A DNA stretch of 64,000 nucleotides from Candidatus Methanomethylophilaceae archaeon (GTDB lineage: Archaea; Thermoplasmatota; Thermoplasmata; Methanomassiliicoccales; Methanomethylophilaceae): NCBI GenBank assembly GCA_017519045.1, contig JAFWTC010000027.1, positions 1 to 64,000 on the forward strand. Reading direction: 5' to 3'. The notes below the pieces were generated by a model. The model saw only the letters and a program-made list of their open reading frames with translations, did no database searches and was not told the DNA's origin. Of this stretch, positions 25,640 to 33,842 are shown in pieces. How positions within the stretch are numbered: the stretch's first letter is position 1; each line of letters begins with the position of its first letter. The translations under genes and the position numbers were made by a program.

Positions 25640-26464
25640 TCATCGTCGATACTCTTCCTTCCAGTTGGGATCTACCCTCAGAATGGACCTCCTGGCGCCC
25701 TCGTTCTCCCATTCGGCGGAATCCGCGTACAGCTCCTTCGCCTTGTCGACAGAACGCGGCACTCCTTTTCCGGCTTCGTACAGGCATCCGAGGTGGTACT
25801 TCGCCAGCGCGTTCTGTCCGGCGGCCTTGGCGTACCATTCCGCCGCCTTATCGTAGGATTGCTCCGTGCCTTCCCCGTGCTCGTACATGTAGCCGAGGTT
25901 GTTCTGCGACTTGGAATAGCCCTGCCGGGCGGCCTTGAGGGTTCATCTGAACGATTCCGTCTCGGACTTCTCCATGCCGTGTCCGGCGCCGTACATCCAC
26001 GCTATCTGCTTGAACGCTTCCGCCAGCCCTCCGTCGGAGGCCCTTTCCAGCATCTCGAAGGCCTTCTCAGGGGATTCGTGGACCCCGATTCCGAACAGGT
26101 AGAAGCCGGCCATGTCATGGAGGGCAGGTAGGTGTCCTTGGTCGATTGTTTTCCTGTACCATTCAAATGACTTCTCGTCAGAATGTTCCAGGCCCAGGCC
26201 GTACTGGTACGCGGTCCCGAGTACGTATTGGGCGTCAGGGTCGCCCTCGTCAGCCATTCCCTTGATGGCAGATACGAGCTCCTCGTCCGTGATGTCGTCG
26301 CGCATAAGGCCGTCTATCAGGGATTGCACTTCGACGTACGGTTCGCTCCTCTTCCCGTCGTTCAGGAACCAATGCGTCAGCCTAGGCGGACCGCCGCCGT
26401 CTCCCATGGGCGAAGGATGCGCCATCGCATATTTCGTTTCCGCCCAAGGGATGACGCGTGGCAT
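25640..26464 (-). pseudogene. Sel1-repeat protein interrupted by in-frame TGA
   Basis: The frame is open from 26464 to a TGA at 25943-25945, then open again in the same frame to a TGA at 25640. Joined, it is 274 codons with about five Sel1 repeats (DAQYVLGTAYQYGLGL, ALHDMAGFYLFGIGVH, AEAFKQIAWMYGAGHG, KSQNNLGYMYEHGEGT, AKYHLGCLYEAGKGV). The internal TGA falls where Sel1 repeats usually have Trp (SFR then TLKAARQG), so TGG to TGA is the simplest explanation. UGA read-through as Trp or Sec is not supported by anything else here. It is at the left edge of the accessory region. Confidence 0.75.
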
Positions 26465-26675: not shown

Positions 26676-27374
26676 TTATACATCTCTTACGAATCTGGCC
26701 TCCATCTGTCCTTGCTGTGTAAGCTTTATGCTGTTGTGGCGGAAGTCCTTGGCTTTCTTTTTGGGATCGTAGATCCCCATCTCCGTGACAATGAGCCCTT
26801 CTTCTCTGAGATTCCTGACGTAGTAGGATACTTGTTGTTTCTTCATGTCAAATTCCGATTCAATGTCTTGGCTGGAGACGTTTCCTCCGTTCAGGGTCCT
26901 TCCATAGATGAACCTAAGTATTTCCCGGCCTTTTTTATCGGATCTGCCGCTCTTCGGTGCCTTGGTCGTCATTATTGTAAGCAGCTGTTTCTGAAGAGGC
27001 AGGTCGTTCCTTTCTTGCACATAGTAGACGGTGGCCCCGATGAAATAGGCAGAAGAATACGCCGCAAAAGCCATCAGCTTGGTCCCTCCGGTGACATTGA
27101 TGGAATAAGAATGCGGGCCGGAGGGCCTTTCATAATCAATGACCTGCGATATCTTCTCCATAACGTCCGAGAAATCAAATTCGTCGACTTCCACCAGCCT
27201 CGAATCTATCCCTCCGCTATCAAGAAATTTTTTGACGCTCAGTGCCGAATCGACGTATCTGCCGCTGTGCATCAGATACACCTTTTCGATGCCCGATATC
27301 AGATTGAATCCCTTCAGTATGGGCTCCGTCCGCTCCCCTAGCGTCGCTATGTGTATATGCATCTCCAATCGCAT
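26676..27374 (-). CDS. CARF-domain winged-helix regulator (Csa3/DUF6293-like)
   Basis: 232 residues. The N-terminal Rossmann-like domain has HIHIATLGERTEPILKGF and the CARF signature YSINVTGGTKLMAFAAY at about 90-106, followed by FIGATVYYVQERND. Residues about 145-232 form a winged helix (EILRFIYGRTLNGGNVSSQD, KKQQVSYYVRNLREEGLIV). CARF domains sense cyclic oligoadenylates, or sit in relatives such as Csa3 that control CRISPR genes; no CRISPR locus is visible here. The gene is divergent from the SF1 helicase operon and has a direct-repeat operator beside its start. The locus is visibly more A+T-rich than its neighbours. An alternative start is the ATG at 27362. Confidence 0.8.
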   Translation of the reverse strand: MRLEMHIHIATLGERTEPILKGFNLISGIEKVYLMHSGRYVDSALSVKKFLDSGGIDSRLVEVDEFDFSDVMEKISQVIDYERPSGPHSYSINVTGGTKLMAFAAYSSAYFIGATVYYVQERNDLPLQKQLLTIMTTKAPKSGRSDKKGREILRFIYGRTLNGGNVSSQDIESEFDMKKQQVSYYVRNLREEGLIVTEMGIYDPKKKAKDFRHNSIKLTQQGQMEARFVRDV

Positions 27375-27383
27375 CTTAATCTA

Positions 27384-27412
27384 TGTACTGTACAATAAAT
27401 ATTTGTACTGTA
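27384..27412. promoter_or_regulatory. Direct-repeat operator TGTACTGTA x2 between regulator and helicase
   Basis: Two exact copies, at 27384-27392 and 27404-27412, are 20 bp apart, nearly two helical turns. They flank an A+T-rich box (caataaatatt) that can act as TATA element for the leftward CARF-HTH gene. An inverted GTACAA/TTGTAC pair is nested inside. This is what an autoregulated winged-helix dimer site would look like. Confidence 0.6.
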
Positions 27413-27515
27413 TGAACATCAAATCATATCATTTTATCGCCATGAGGTTCTAGCATCCGTTAAATGCGAAGAACGCGAACGGGTGCTGCTTAGCGATTTG
27501 ACCGGAAGGTGAAAA

Positions 27516-30500
27516 ATGGCTGAAGAACGTGCGTATATGGATTTCAGTTCCAACTCCGAGATCGACGAGGATTGGAACAGGGACAAGATCTACAAGGTCG
27601 GGCTGAAGGACCAGTTCGAGATGCTCCAGATAGGAGTCGACTACGACTATTTCGTCAGGAGCATGATCGCCGGGACCGATGTGCCCCTCGGCATTTCATT
27701 TCCCAATTTCGACAGGTCTCCTCCGTCCAGGAGCGAGAGAAACAGATGGTTCAACATCGCGGTCAGGATGCCAGTAGCAGGATTGGACTACTACATAGTC
27801 TTCATGTGCGACCTCGACGAGTACAAGCCTAAGAACAAGGAGGAGGTCCATCGCTTTTTCAGAGTAAAGGGCATAACCACGCTCGACAAGGGGACCGTGG
27901 CATGCGGCGAGATCCAGGTCACCTGCGACGTCTTCACCCGCCTGTACTTCCAGGGATACTGGAGCAACGTCGGGTCCGAGGATGTGAAGTACCTCTCGGA
28001 CGAGGACATGAGACGCTCGGTCCTCTCCATCGACTTCCTCTCCCGCCTCTCCGAGCAGTTCGTCGTCAAGGAGCCTCAGAAGGTCCTGGACAGGCTATCC
28101 AAATGGGGGAGGTACCTCGATGCCAAGAAGGAGATAATGGAGAAGGACCTAGGGGTCTCGTATTCCGTGGATGAGCGCCCCGAGGTGTTCGTCGCATATT
28201 ATAAAGCAGACTGCTCCGAGGAGGAGAAGGAGGAGTCCATCCCGTTCCTCAGGGTCAAGGACCGCAACGGCGTCTGGTCCTTCAAGGAGCTGCCAGGATC
28301 CGAGAAGGCACCTCTCGTCCACATCGTCCACGACTTCCTCAAGAAGGACTACGACGAGGATCCGTCCCTCAGGAAGAAGTTCGAGTCCTTCACAAGCGCC
28401 CGCTCGCTGATATTATCGGAAGAGCTCGTCTTCGAGGATGTGAAGAGGGGCAAGTCCACCGAGAGAAGGCCTGTTTTCAAGTCGAAGGTCGGGATAATGG
28501 ACGGGAGGATATCCTCGAGGGCCGACGAGGAGGTCATCCCCAACAAGGCGAAGATCGACAACATAATCAGGGAAGGAAAAGAAGCCATAGAGAGGATGAG
28601 GAAGGAGACCGAGGGCGAGCGCGAAAGGGAGTTCCGCTCTCTGATGAGCAGCTACGAGAGCGAGACGCTTCCGCCTCTTATCGAGGAATATAAGATCAAA
28701 GAGCGCGAGAGACGCCTTCCCTCATGCATCGCCGTCCGCGAGGAGAGAATCGCCAAGGAAAGGAGTTCGCTAGAAGCATCCATATCTTCATTCAAGTCTG
28801 ATCTCGATGCCGCTCAGAGGTCCGTCGAAGACTTACGCAGAAGGCTCGAGTCCGAGGATGATCTTGACGAATCTTCTAGGAAGAACATCGAATCCTCGAT
28901 CGGGAAGATCGAGTCCGAGGCATCCGGCATCCGGGACAAGATGGCGTCCGCGGAGGACAGGCTAGGGAGGCTCGGAGAGATCCACGACCTGGACTCCATC
29001 GTCGAGAAGACAATATCCCCTTTCGTGAGCTCGTACAGATCCGGACTCATGGAGGAGCGCAGGGACGTGGTGGACGCTGAGCTGAGGGTCAAGTACGTGA
29101 ACATCTTCAAGGCGAGGGAGGAGGACCGCAACCGCCAGACCGAGGAGATGGTGGAGACGGTGAAACTGGAGGAGACGAGGATGCGCCTCCATGTATTCTA
29201 CCGCCTCGACACGGAGTCTGCGGGGGACCCGGAGTCCATATCGAAGAGCGTTTCTGAAACCATCCGCGGGAAGACCCTGTTCCTCTACAAGGATCCCAGC
29301 GGGGACATGTCCATCATGAATCGTCAGAGGGCCGCCCTGGACAACCTGAGGAAAGGCTACGTCATGAACCCGTTCCTGGCCTCAGCCCTCTTCGACAGCT
29401 CCAGCCAGCTATTCAGAGGACAGGCCGCGGTGGATCGCTTCTACAGCAAGAGGCTCAATGAGAAGCAGAAGGAGGCCATCAGGAAGGCTGTGGCCTCCAA
29501 CGGCATGTTCCTAATAAGGGGGCCTCCGGGAACCGGAAAGACGGAGGTTATCGCGGAGATCACTGCCCAGCTCGTGACCAGGAACAAGAAGGTCCTCATA
29601 GCCAGCGAGAACCACAAGGCCGTGGACAACGCCTTCCTCAGGCTTCCGGAGATCCCCACGCTGAGGCGCGTCCGCCTCTTCGGAGGATACGCCCGCAAGA
29701 GGGAGGACTCCAATCCTTTCTCTGCGAATAACCAGACCCGCATATTCTACCGCGACATAGCGAAGCGTCTGGAGGGGGAGATACAGAAGGCCTCCTCATC
29801 AAGGATGTACTCCGAGAGCATTGTCCCTTTGCTGAATGACCTTAAGGACCGCGCCAAGCGCCTGAGGGAGCTCGAGTCAAGAGCACAGGATCTTTTGAAG
29901 AGCATTGCCTCCGCTTCGGAGGAGATGGACCGGGTCAACAGGAAGATTATCCGCGACCGCGAGGAGAACTCGGACTCCGAGTCGAGGATGTCGGCGATGA
30001 GGGAGGCCATCGACTCAATACGCGGATTCGAATGGGACGACGCCAAGGAGTACGTCGCCGATATCTCCATATCATTCGAGGGCGAGGATCTCACGATGGA
30101 CACCGTACGCAGCCTGTACGCGATCGGGAAGCCTGAAATAAGGAAGGAATACCGCTTCATCGACGAGCACCGCGGCTTCTTCGATTTGCTGGAGAAGAGG
30201 GCGACCGCCAGCGAATCCGATGCGAAGGCGATAGAGATCGAGATGCTCAGCTATCAGAGCGAGCATTCATTCAATGTGTTCGAGTTCAAGATGGCCAAGC
30301 TGTTCCCGCGCGGGGTGCCGCAGCGCGATGCCGCCCTCGAGTTGAAGGAGGAGGTCGACTCCGCCGTCGAGGGGATAATCGCGGACATCGAGAAGAAGAT
30401 CAGCGAGGAGGCGGAGCTCTGCAACGACACTTCCCGCGACGAGCAGCGCGTCAGGATGCTCGAGAGGGACATCCAGGCATATCGCGCCGACCCCGTCTTC

Positions 30501-31838
30501 AAGGCGTTCGAGGAGGCCCGCGAGGCCCTCGACTCCGACATCAGGAGGGCCCTCTCCGACAACAACATCCTGGGCCAGTTCAAGGAACCAGAGGAGGGGA
30601 TCGGTTTCCTGGAGCAGGAGGTCCAGCACATCCGCTCTGCGGCAAGCAGCGGTATGTCTCAGGAGCTCCAGGCCGCTTACGGCAAGATGGCCGGATACCT
30701 CCGCGACGAGGGCGTCGTAGAGAAGGACTCGGAGCAGCTCAACGACGAGCTCCTGGACTACGCGAACGTCATCGGCCTGACCTGCACCACGAGCGACAGC
30801 ATCAAGACCGACGCCGGGACAGTGGACCTGAAGAGGGCGAACATAGACGTGGTCATTGTGGATGAAGTGAGCAAGGTGTCGTTCCTGGAGGTCCTGTACC
30901 CGATCCTCTACGGGAAGACGGTCATCCTGGTCGGGGACGACAAGCAGCTGCCCCCCATCTACCAGTCCAACGTCCTCGACGGCGACTACAGCAGGTACGA
31001 CCCCGGCCTCATCAACAAGAACCTGGAGGACGAGTTCAGGCGCATGTACGAGACCTCGTTCTTCAAGGAGCTCTACAGGACCATGCCCGAGTGCAACAAG
31101 ACCATGCTGACCGTCCAGTACAGGATGCACCCCCACATCATGGACGCGGACAACATCTTCTACGGAAACCAGCTCACCTACGGCGGCGCGGAGGGCAACA
31201 GGGAGCACTACCTCGAGGTCAAGGGCGGCTTCAGCCGGAACATAATCTCCAAGGACACCCACCTCGTGTTCGTCGACGTGGACGGAAGGGAGGAGAGGGG
31301 CTACTCCGGCGGGAGGTCCCGCATAAACCAGAGGGAAGCCGACGTCGTCGTCAGCATCCTCCGCAAGATGGAGTACAGCTGCACCAAGGACGCCGCAGGC
31401 GAGGATCTGGGTGGGCGCAAGTTCACCAAGGACTACGATCCTCGCCTCAGTCTCGGGGTCATCTGCGGATACTCGGACCAGGCCAAGCTAATACGCAGGA
31501 GCCTCAAGGGCTTCAAGTTCCAGTCGTTCAACAGGAAAGACGACGAGCAGTTCATGGTCGACACCGTAGACAACTTCCAGGGAGACGAGAGGGACATCAT
31601 AGTGCTGTCCCTGGTCGCCACGAACCGCCTCGAGAACAGCTTCATGAAGGTGTACAACAGGATCAACGTGGCCATAAGCCGCGCTAGATGCCTCCTCGTG
31701 ATCGTAGGGAACGGAAGGGCGTTCTCCAATCTTCGCACGGAGATAGACGGTAGGAACGATTTCGTTTACAGGAGAATTGTCGATCAGGCGAAGTTCCACC
31801 GCGGCTACATAACCGAGAGGGACGTCATGGGGGAATGA
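27516..31838 (+). CDS. Large SF1 (Upf1/Dna2-like) helicase with coiled-coil insertions
   Basis: 1440 residues. Walker A GPPGTGKT is at 669-676, Walker B VIVDEVSK with D1116/E1117, motif III GDDKQLPP at 1140-1147, motif IV VQYRMHP around 1201, motif V DNFQGDERD at about 1352, and motif VI NVAISRARC near 1384. The Walker A-B interval of about 440 residues is much longer than usual and is largely charged and coiled-coil-like. The first about 350 residues form an unrecognised domain, followed by a long coiled coil (about 355-560). The core matches AAA_11/AAA_12-type SF1B helicases acting on RNA or DNA. No nuclease motif was found. The next gene starts 3 nt after the stop, so both are one operon, divergent from the CARF regulator. 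Confidence 0.9.
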   Translation: MAEERAYMDFSSNSEIDEDWNRDKIYKVGLKDQFEMLQIGVDYDYFVRSMIAGTDVPLGISFPNFDRSPPSRSERNRWFNIAVRMPVAGLDYYIVFMCDLDEYKPKNKEEVHRFFRVKGITTLDKGTVACGEIQVTCDVFTRLYFQGYWSNVGSEDVKYLSDEDMRRSVLSIDFLSRLSEQFVVKEPQKVLDRLSKWGRYLDAKKEIMEKDLGVSYSVDERPEVFVAYYKADCSEEEKEESIPFLRVKDRNGVWSFKELPGSEKAPLVHIVHDFLKKDYDEDPSLRKKFESFTSARSLILSEELVFEDVKRGKSTERRPVFKSKVGIMDGRISSRADEEVIPNKAKIDNIIREGKEAIERMRKETEGEREREFRSLMSSYESETLPPLIEEYKIKERERRLPSCIAVREERIAKERSSLEASISSFKSDLDAAQRSVEDLRRRLESEDDLDESSRKNIESSIGKIESEASGIRDKMASAEDRLGRLGEIHDLDSIVEKTISPFVSSYRSGLMEERRDVVDAELRVKYVNIFKAREEDRNRQTEEMVETVKLEETRMRLHVFYRLDTESAGDPESISKSVSETIRGKTLFLYKDPSGDMSIMNRQRAALDNLRKGYVMNPFLASALFDSSSQLFRGQAAVDRFYSKRLNEKQKEAIRKAVASNGMFLIRGPPGTGKTEVIAEITAQLVTRNKKVLIASENHKAVDNAFLRLPEIPTLRRVRLFGGYARKREDSNPFSANNQTRIFYRDIAKRLEGEIQKASSSRMYSESIVPLLNDLKDRAKRLRELESRAQDLLKSIASASEEMDRVNRKIIRDREENSDSESRMSAMREAIDSIRGFEWDDAKEYVADISISFEGEDLTMDTVRSLYAIGKPEIRKEYRFIDEHRGFFDLLEKRATASESDAKAIEIEMLSYQSEHSFNVFEFKMAKLFPRGVPQRDAALELKEEVDSAVEGIIADIEKKISEEAELCNDTSRDEQRVRMLERDIQAYRADPVFKAFEEAREALDSDIRRALSDNNILGQFKEPEEGIGFLEQEVQHIRSAASSGMSQELQAAYGKMAGYLRDEGVVEKDSEQLNDELLDYANVIGLTCTTSDSIKTDAGTVDLKRANIDVVIVDEVSKVSFLEVLYPILYGKTVILVGDDKQLPPIYQSNVLDGDYSRYDPGLINKNLEDEFRRMYETSFFKELYRTMPECNKTMLTVQYRMHPHIMDADNIFYGNQLTYGGAEGNREHYLEVKGGFSRNIISKDTHLVFVDVDGREERGYSGGRSRINQREADVVVSILRKMEYSCTKDAAGEDLGGRKFTKDYDPRLSLGVICGYSDQAKLIRRSLKGFKFQSFNRKDDEQFMVDTVDNFQGDERDIIVLSLVATNRLENSFMKVYNRINVAISRARCLLVIVGNGRAFSNLRTEIDGRNDFVYRRIVDQAKFHRGYITERDVMGE

Positions 31839-31841
31839 GGG

Positions 31842-33842
31842 ATGAAATCCAGAGTCACAGTCAAGGTGCCTGTCGTGGAGCTCAGCGTCAGCGGGGAGTA
31901 CAGCAGGTTTAAAAAACCGACCGGTCTTGAGAACATGGTTCTTACCGCCATTGGCACGCCCGCGCTGAGATCCGACACGTGGAGGGAGTTCTTCGCGAGG
32001 ATCGGGGTTCCGGAGCGCATGTTCCCGTTGTTTGAGAACGTAATCGAGGGCCTATGCCGGAACGAGGTCATTAGGATGGCCGGCTTCAGCCCGGACGACA
32101 GGATATCGTCGGCCGAGTTCACGGAGACGGGGCGCGACATGTTCGAGCAGGGCCGCATCAAGCAGGAGCCGAAGAGGTTCCGCGAGACGGTGTTCTACAC
32201 TCCATATGCCAGGGCCGGCGACGAGCCGTTTCTGTTCGCAATTAATGTCTCCGACGAGGGGGATTTCGAAAGGGACAGGTTTGCGGACGTGGTCTACGAC
32301 GAGGAGGGGCTTAGGCTATTCCTAGTGAAGAACAAGAAGCGCCTCGGGGCGGATACCGAGGACGAGATACTTACGATCGCCCTTGACGACGAGCCGGCGG
32401 TCTGCTGCGTGGACAAGGAGATCTATCTTCAGATGGACGAGTCGTCGGGGGACTTCTACTTCGAGTCTAGCATGGATCCAAACTTCGTGAAGGGCCACTA
32501 TGACTCCCGGGACTTGATATCTTCCATCGAGGGTCTTGGATCCAATCCGAAGAACATGATCCTCACTCCTGTCCAGACGGTTCCAGAGGGCTGGGAGGCG
32601 GTGAGGTACGACCTTCCAAAGGACTTCTCCTTCAGAGGGAAGTTCATCGCCTACGACAGGGGCCTCTGCACCGCCGTAGGAGCCACGCCTGTGGACGGCA
32701 TCGGGTGCGCGTTCGCGGACATAACCAGTGCGAGCATCGGGAGGGGTTATGTGCTTATGAGCAGGATGGCCTCCGTCTTCGGTCTGAAGGAATCAGTCGA
32801 GGTCTCCGAGTTGGTCTCCCGTCCGCTTTCCAGACAGGAGATAGCTTCGGTATTCGATCGCGCGCTCGAGGCGGTCCATCTGTCTAGCTACGATCAGATG
32901 ATGTCGTTCATAGAGAAGGCCGAAGTTCTGGGCGATCCAGAGTACCAGCTGCGCGTTGTGCGTAAACATCTCGATTCAGTGGAGGACCCTACCATATCCC
33001 TCTCGAAGCTCTCGACTACCAAGGCAAAATGGTCCAAAGGCCTTCCAGAGACAGTCGAGCAGTACATGCTGGAAATGAACAAGGGGGTCGACACGGTGGT
33101 TAGCATGGTGGTGGGGTCGTCCTTGAAACTCGGATGCGAGTCCTTGGCAGACAAGTATCGCACTGGTGATGTGGATAGGAACATAGACGTCGCTGACAAG
33201 CTGTTCAGGATCTCGAGATTTCCCGGCCTCGTATCTGCCAGGATGGGAATCGGAGAGCGTATTGCTGATATGGTGCTGAATGGTTTCCATGGGGGTTACA
33301 TTTCCAAGGAGATGCAGGCAGCAGGCATGGCCTCTGCAAATTTGTCGAAGCTCAAGGGAATGTTCGGTGTAGAGTCTCTCGGAAAATACGATGTCTCGTC
33401 GTTCAAGGAGTCAGACACCGACTCCATGATGGCCTGCTACGATGCTTTGGTCAAGTCCATGGCCGACGTAAAGCCCTTGGTTAGGGGAACAGAGGGCGAT
33501 AGAGAAATAGAGGGATACATCGACCTGTTTCAGAACTTTGCCGAGATCTACGGCAAGGACGTCCCCTTGCAGAGGCTTAACGGATACCAGTTTGGGATAG
33601 GGGTTCGCAGAAAAGCGGAGACCGTCCTCCGCAAGTTGCTTGGTTCCAATGACAATCTTGCGAAGCTCATAGGCGACGCAGCAGAAGAAAACCTAATTTC
33701 CGACGAAGAACAACGGATCCTGGATAAAATTAGGAACTACGGGAACACTTCAGCCCATACCACCAATGTCGATCCCATCGACAGCAAGGAGAAGAAGAGG
33801 TGGATCCGTTTAGTGGAGGATATCGAGAATAGGGATTCCTGA
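31842..33842 (+). CDS. Unknown helicase partner with C-terminal HEPN/DUF4145-like motif
   Basis: 666 residues, not recognised over most of its length. Residues about 1-120 look like a helical/wHTH-type region (WREFFARIGVPERMFPLFEN, VIEGLCRNEVIRMAGFSPDD). The middle is beta-rich, then helical after about 330. The C-terminus has IRNYGNTSAH at about 630-639, with R631 and H639 and the Gly-Asn as in DUF4145, a family of the HEPN clan. HEPN domains with an R/H motif are often RNases in conflict systems. The motif is seen directly; RNase activity is inference. It is almost certainly co-translated with the helicase and followed by a large hairpin. Confidence 0.7.
   Translation: MKSRVTVKVPVVELSVSGEYSRFKKPTGLENMVLTAIGTPALRSDTWREFFARIGVPERMFPLFENVIEGLCRNEVIRMAGFSPDDRISSAEFTETGRDMFEQGRIKQEPKRFRETVFYTPYARAGDEPFLFAINVSDEGDFERDRFADVVYDEEGLRLFLVKNKKRLGADTEDEILTIALDDEPAVCCVDKEIYLQMDESSGDFYFESSMDPNFVKGHYDSRDLISSIEGLGSNPKNMILTPVQTVPEGWEAVRYDLPKDFSFRGKFIAYDRGLCTAVGATPVDGIGCAFADITSASIGRGYVLMSRMASVFGLKESVEVSELVSRPLSRQEIASVFDRALEAVHLSSYDQMMSFIEKAEVLGDPEYQLRVVRKHLDSVEDPTISLSKLSTTKAKWSKGLPETVEQYMLEMNKGVDTVVSMVVGSSLKLGCESLADKYRTGDVDRNIDVADKLFRISRFPGLVSARMGIGERIADMVLNGFHGGYISKEMQAAGMASANLSKLKGMFGVESLGKYDVSSFKESDTDSMMACYDALVKSMADVKPLVRGTEGDREIEGYIDLFQNFAEIYGKDVPLQRLNGYQFGIGVRRKAETVLRKLLGSNDNLAKLIGDAAEENLISDEEQRILDKIRNYGNTSAHTTNVDPIDSKEKKRWIRLVEDIENRDS

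Follow-up and report, generated by a model that had tools for sequence, protein, structure and literature searches.

A divergent CARF-wHTH regulator beside a Mokosh-like helicase operon in a Methanomethylophilaceae archaeon

We analysed a window of 64,000 nucleotides, meaning the whole stretch of DNA from a Candidatus Methanomethylophilaceae archaeon, and found a CARF-wHTH regulator gene that is divergent from a two-gene operon of a UPF1-like helicase and a partner with a HEPN-type C-terminus (Table 1). On sequence comparison, we put it at somewhat better than an even chance that the locus is a defence-type two-gene operon of an MkoA/MkoB-like helicase-RNase pair, controlled by the divergent HFX_2341-type CARF-wHTH regulator; the helicase/partner operon itself is probably antiviral. 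The original prediction had called the cassette undescribed. This holds for the combination, as a CARF regulator and a Mokosh-like helicase operon are each of a known general kind and their pairing is new, but it fails in part, because the helicase is MkoA-like and combinations of CARF, UPF1-like helicase and HEPN have already been discussed for CoCoNuTs (PMC11090510). Of greater interest than the single locus is that CARF-wHTH genes have HEPN modules as neighbours in genomes where the cyclase families searched for were not found.

Table 1 Features of the locus (positions of the window)
Feature	Position	Strand	Basis or remark
CARF-wHTH regulator gene, HFX_2341/Crr-like, 232 aa	26676..27374	-	Pfam and PADLOC
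Imperfect palindrome TACAGTACAA-N7-TTGTACAGTA, candidate operator	27386..27412		12-38 nt 5' of CARF ATG
SF1 UPF1/IGHMBP2-like helicase gene, MkoA-like, 1440 aa	27516..31838	+	Pfam, PADLOC, PDB
Walker A-Walker B insertion, residues 677-1113	29544..30854	+	common to relatives
Partner gene, 666 aa, MkoB-like N-terminus, HEPN/DUF4145 C-terminus	31842..33842	+	Pfam, alignments
Partner N-terminal module, about residues 5-209	31854..32468	+	common to bacterial PIN-carrying partners
DUF4145 (HEPN superfamily) domain, residues 586-648	33597..33785	+	PF13643, 31.2 bits, cutoff 23.1
IRNYGNTSAH, residues 630-639	33729..33758	+	pairwise alignment with G078 homologue

The three open reading frames, with the CARF gene divergent from the other two, lie exactly where the original prediction had placed them, and its domain calls (CARF-wHTH, SF1 helicase and HEPN/DUF4145) are backed by Pfam and PADLOC. 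The N-terminus of the regulator matches HFX_2341_N (PF19810, 51.5 bits against a cutoff of 30), the protein also matches CARF_Card1 (29.7 bits, cutoff 24.6), and the PADLOC model CARF3--CARF covers its full length (2.7e-70). The CARF motif NxTGGTK is intact, contained in the predicted YSINVTGGTK, and the wHTH scores slightly below cutoff (MarR_2, 24.9 bits against 27); the predicted structure has a pLDDT of 38. An identity with Csa3, the regulator of type I-A CRISPR, was rejected, with TIGR01884 at 28 bits against a cutoff of 60.2 and none of the neighbours scanned being a cas gene. The CARF and helicase genes are separated by 141 bp (27375-27515), and the palindrome 5' of the CARF start has no significance by itself (shuffle p = 0.14). 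A similar promoter element, of the approximate form TAATACCGTAAAA, lies 5' of several CARF genes (L032, L033, L034, L036, L043) and was not seen at the window CARF.

The helicase carries AAA_12 (4e-41) and AAA_11 (5e-33) domains, matches the PADLOC model of the Mokosh protein MkoA (PDLC03920) at 3e-93, and has SMUBP-2, UPF1 and SEN1 as its nearest solved structures (PDB matches to 8e-22). Its motifs GPPGTGKT (Walker A, 669) and VIVDEVSK (Walker B, 1113) lie 447 residues apart. The long insertion that the original prediction had noticed is real, but it is not extraordinary: since the gap is also 419-519 aa in relatives with both motifs found, the insertion is a feature of the family. The helicase of a so-called PLuB system was tried as an identity and rejected, its model matching at 3e-56, far under its cutoff; no further PLuB model matched the rest of the Microbacterium operon, and the literature searched has no mention of PLuB.

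The partner gene starts 3 bp past the helicase stop. Profiles of the archaeal and bacterial partners align at 96.7 % (E 4e-10) over the N-terminal ~200-209 residues only, and so one N-terminal module is joined to PIN in bacteria or to HEPN in the window and in G078, a genome of the same family and another genus. Towards PADLOC MkoB, the window partner shows a weak match (0.011) that covers only the N-terminal ~110 residues and involves a non-specific model, which as a genome-wide probe matches 9/14 controls; the Polaromonas partner reaches 1.4e-4 over residues 9-209. The structure model of the partner has a pLDDT of 41 overall and of 66-87 at residues 11-120, being usable at most there; in this low-confidence model the N-terminal module is winged-helix-like, and Foldseek returned MarR-like and similar PDB matches, all with E of at least 0.47. 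At the other end of the protein, the sequence IRNYGNTSAH was found as predicted. In the pairwise alignment, its Gly634 falls at the position where the G078 homologue has its catalytic Arg (GNTSAH vs RNKCAH), and the catalytic Rx4-6H motif, conserved in ~80 % of DUF4145 proteins according to a HEPN survey (PMC3710099), is not present in the window partner. The RNase activity assumed for this copy is therefore unsupported, and since Gly634 replaces the catalytic Arg, the window partner may be an RNA binder rather than a cutter.

Five other partner homologues from the same genus or the host genome each lie directly 3' of a related helicase. Bacterial relatives came from a scan of public genomes (Microbacterium, Fervidicella, Veillonellaceae), to which tblastn added plasmids of Polaromonas, Moellerella and Photobacterium. 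The bacterial gene order is helicase, partner, a protein of ~380 aa, a ClpB-like AAA ATPase and an NrdG-like radical SAM protein; PIN forms the partner C-terminus in five of the six bacterial relatives, the Veillonellaceae protein giving no Pfam match, and ArdA, integrases and R-M genes adjoin the plasmid-borne homologues. This five-gene operon (MkoA-like helicase, PIN/HEPN partner, coiled coil, ClpB-like AAA, NrdG-like radical SAM) is found on bacterial chromosomes and plasmids (L047, L048, L050, L071, L072, L073) and in a complete archaeal copy (L088 6585-16564), and has no system name in the libraries searched.

The divergent layout of CARF, helicase and HEPN partner recurs in G078, making two genomes in all. 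The G078 operon has five genes, namely the helicase, the HEPN partner and three further genes, and is preceded by a short PemK-like gene that shares 50 % identity with a PemK at G017 for which Pfam gives support. Identity to the window is 34-37 % for the helicase, 25-26 % for the HEPN partner and only 25 % for the CARF. The G078 partner scores 19.8 bits for DUF4145, under the cutoff of 23.1, aligns with the window partner over its full length and ends in RNKCAH. The window and G078 helicases form one clade (support 98/98); from this clade and the five-gene G078 operon, the window pair looks like a reduced, two-gene form of the five-gene operon, whose AAA gene was not found elsewhere in the host genome. 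The host genome also has a second helicase/partner pair (L007 4556-10818, G000:C8), which is without a CARF and without a DUF4145 match. Additionally, genes of the Sel1-repeat type lie near or divergent from several pairs (window 25640-26464; L007 3658-4539; L009 6641-7450; L085 14977-15825).

If the locus works as we favour, the UPF1-like motor would recognise and translocate on foreign or aberrant RNA and hand it to the partner, whose C-terminal domain would cut it if this domain is PIN or a HEPN that retains its motif, the window copy perhaps only binding it. Acting on the shared 141-bp promoter region, the CARF-wHTH protein would repress its own gene and the operon, whose products are potentially toxic, and this repression would be lifted once a nucleotide or RNA-end ligand from infection or RNA damage occupies the CARF pocket. 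RNA is indicated as the target of the Mokosh-like operon, because the partner carries different RNase-type domains (PIN, HEPN) on a shared N-terminal module.

Alternatively, the CARF gene could stand here by chance or be linked only loosely, encoding a Crr-like global regulator, with the helicase/partner pair acting as a self-sufficient Mokosh-like defence. We regard this as unlikely, while giving weight to the facts that varied genes stand beside CARFs of this family, that HFX_2341 influences many genes (PMC11434293), and that CARF-less pairs exist: none of the five other archaeal pairs with a readable upstream side (L007, L061, L083, L085, L009) has a CARF, and their partners gave no DUF4145 match where scanned. 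These same pairs also speak against it, as a CARF is present at 2/2 HEPN-type vs 0/5 non-HEPN operons (Fisher exact p = 0.048, a value from small numbers and related sequences); in addition, both layouts are divergent, and each of the six HEPN_LA2681 genes that the order's 147 genomes contain has a CARF of this family next to it. Against control of the operon by the CARF protein, the pairings in the window and in G078 may be independent, since the G078 CARF is so distant and the exact triad was seen in two genomes only.

Relatives of the window CARF (P0001) were detected in 15/147 genomes of the order, and 15 CARF loci, the window included, were inspected; two distant matches from a different family (G138, G142) were set aside. 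A HEPN gene lies in the immediate neighbourhood at 11 of these loci (window, G078 twice, G075, G121, G026, G029, G017, G125, G027, G034), a count that, like the HEPN_LA2681 one, comes from related and hence non-independent genomes. Five of the six CARF-adjoining HEPN_LA2681 genes are at loci with a viperin-like gene, identified by pVip (4.9e-70) for G078 and by reading as the same radical SAM gene at the others; at L038, L039, L040, L041 and L042 (12951-18207 in the last), the CARF-wHTH gene is directly 3' of HEPN_LA2681 with the viperin-like radical SAM gene close by. Three CARF loci have an SF1 helicase of the HEPN_Swt1 type (near or above the Pfam cutoff) and an Hsp70-like gene, the Hsp70 assignment having been tested in G034; in L032, L033 and L034, these two genes flank paired CARF-wHTH genes. 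The second CARF-wHTH gene of the host genome (C84; L036 8430-9865) adjoins a 120-aa ORF, a fragment similar (4e-5) to the N-terminal part of the HEPN gene at G017, a HEPN_LA2681 type. Elsewhere, the G086 CARF has a sub-threshold PemK-like neighbour, and the G083 locus is a contig of 3.6 kb. Small PemK/MazF-like genes adjoin CARFs at L042 7542-7877, L035 9935-10336 and L043 3072-3437, one above the Pfam cutoff and the rest weaker. As family members also have type I R-M genes (G062) and, in other families, non-defence genes for neighbours, the CARF family is, by these neighbourhoods, not dedicated to the helicase/partner operon. Both HEPN and PemK/MazF proteins are metal-independent RNases that leave 2',3'-cyclic phosphate ends.

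Cyclic oligoadenylates are the ligands for which CARF domains are best known, and the original prediction assumed such a ligand here. This is unsupported, because in the 15 CARF-bearing genomes, host included, no Cas10 (TIGR02578, TIGR02577), SMODS-type CD-NTase or diadenylate cyclase (DAC) was found above cutoff; two sub-threshold TIGR02578 fragments appeared in this search, known control genomes matched, and the genomes include the host at 91 % completeness and two single-contig ones at 99 %. It is thus unlikely that a known synthase supplies the CARF protein with a cyclic oligoadenylate as its ligand. That the regulator nevertheless senses such a molecule and switches on helicase-RNase effectors in the style of type III CRISPR is consistent with the intact NxTGGTK and with the cA4 binding of Csa3 CARF-wHTH proteins (PMC8699464), yet is improbable, as none of the synthases searched for was found in the host or the 14 other CARF-bearing genomes, even if an undescribed synthase may exist. 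Precedents for other modes exist: HFX_2341 represses genes in a haloarchaeon that has no type III cyclase (PMC11434293), the RtcR CARF binds tRNA halves with 2',3'-cyclic phosphate ends (PMC7790460), and 2',3'-cyclic-phosphate sensing with feedback by HEPN cleavage was proposed for the RtcR-like CARFs of CoCoNuTs (PMC11090510). By analogy with RtcR, RNA ends with 2',3'-cyclic phosphates are our leading ligand candidate. A bolder proposal is an order-wide layer independent of cyclic oligoadenylates, in which CARF-wHTH repressors would sense these ends and derepress neighbouring RNase modules in a feed-forward manner; we hold it to be speculative and rather unlikely. If true, helicase-RNase, HEPN-viperin and HEPN-helicase-Hsp70 modules would all be so controlled, as a split counterpart of the CARF-HEPN fusion. 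Because RNase-module neighbours were found in genomes without Cas10, SMODS and DAC, the ligand question for HFX_2341-type CARFs in archaea without type III CRISPR becomes directly testable.

A housekeeping RNA surveillance or decay machine, made of a Upf1-like helicase and an RNA-binding partner with no defence role, is also very doubtful: SMUBP-2, UPF1 and SEN1 are indeed the nearest solved relatives and the synteny of some sister pairs is kept across species of the genus (L007, L008, L011), but the helicase/partner distribution is very patchy (10/147 genomes of the order), the purB/PPOX flank is conserved across the genus while the region beyond it showed no cassette in any of seven relatives, a few of which offered short contigs for inspection, bacterial homologues are plasmid-borne and have antirestriction and integrase genes as neighbours, and a pVip gene lies near the G078 operon. 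As to origin, two candidates were rejected: the viral_contigs search gave no relatives of any of the three proteins, and no exact repeat of 13 nt or longer of the tRNA-Ala region, such as integration there might leave, occurs elsewhere in the window.

Returning to a CARF-controlled Mokosh-like operon, the locus can be set beside several known systems. Like Mokosh type I, it has an SF1 helicase of the COG1112 type followed by a partner gene, with the strong MkoA match and an N-terminal resemblance to MkoB that is weak in the window and stronger in the bacterial homologue; it differs in the C-terminal HEPN of the window partner and in the CARF regulator, and relatives differ in having three additional genes. 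A Ser/Thr kinase domain is reported for Mokosh type I (PMC11672841), and none was seen in the helicase (P0002) among the best 25 of 30 Pfam families at E <= 1. Because no kinase domain was found and the MkoB match is weak, we do not file the locus as Mokosh type I. CoCoNuT types II and III (CnuH helicase with HEPN, and CARF regulators; PMC11090510) share HEPN, CARF and the UPF1-family helicase, in which Walker A is again followed by a large helical insertion; the CoCoNuT CARF is RtcR-like, whereas that of the window is an HFX_2341-type CARF-wHTH. No homologue of the GTPase McrB or of McrC was found among the seven proteins scanned (23.9-35.3 kb), which is why the locus is not filed as a CoCoNuT either. 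HFX_2341/Crr of haloarchaea (PMC11434293) has the same CARF-like N-terminus with an HTH, and its host likewise has no type III cyclase; Crr, however, is a conserved global regulator, while the window CARF gene is patchy and adjoins defence-type genes. Csm6 and Csx1, the CARF-HEPN RNases of type III CRISPR, likewise combine CARF sensing with HEPN, whereas here the two domains belong to different proteins, a DNA-binding domain accompanies the CARF in its own protein, and Cas10 was not found. Finally, the BrxR-type WYL regulators (PMC9122601) are also a family of ligand-domain and HTH proteins that stand beside many unrelated defence systems; their sensor domain is WYL, whereas the window regulator is archaeal and carries a CARF domain.
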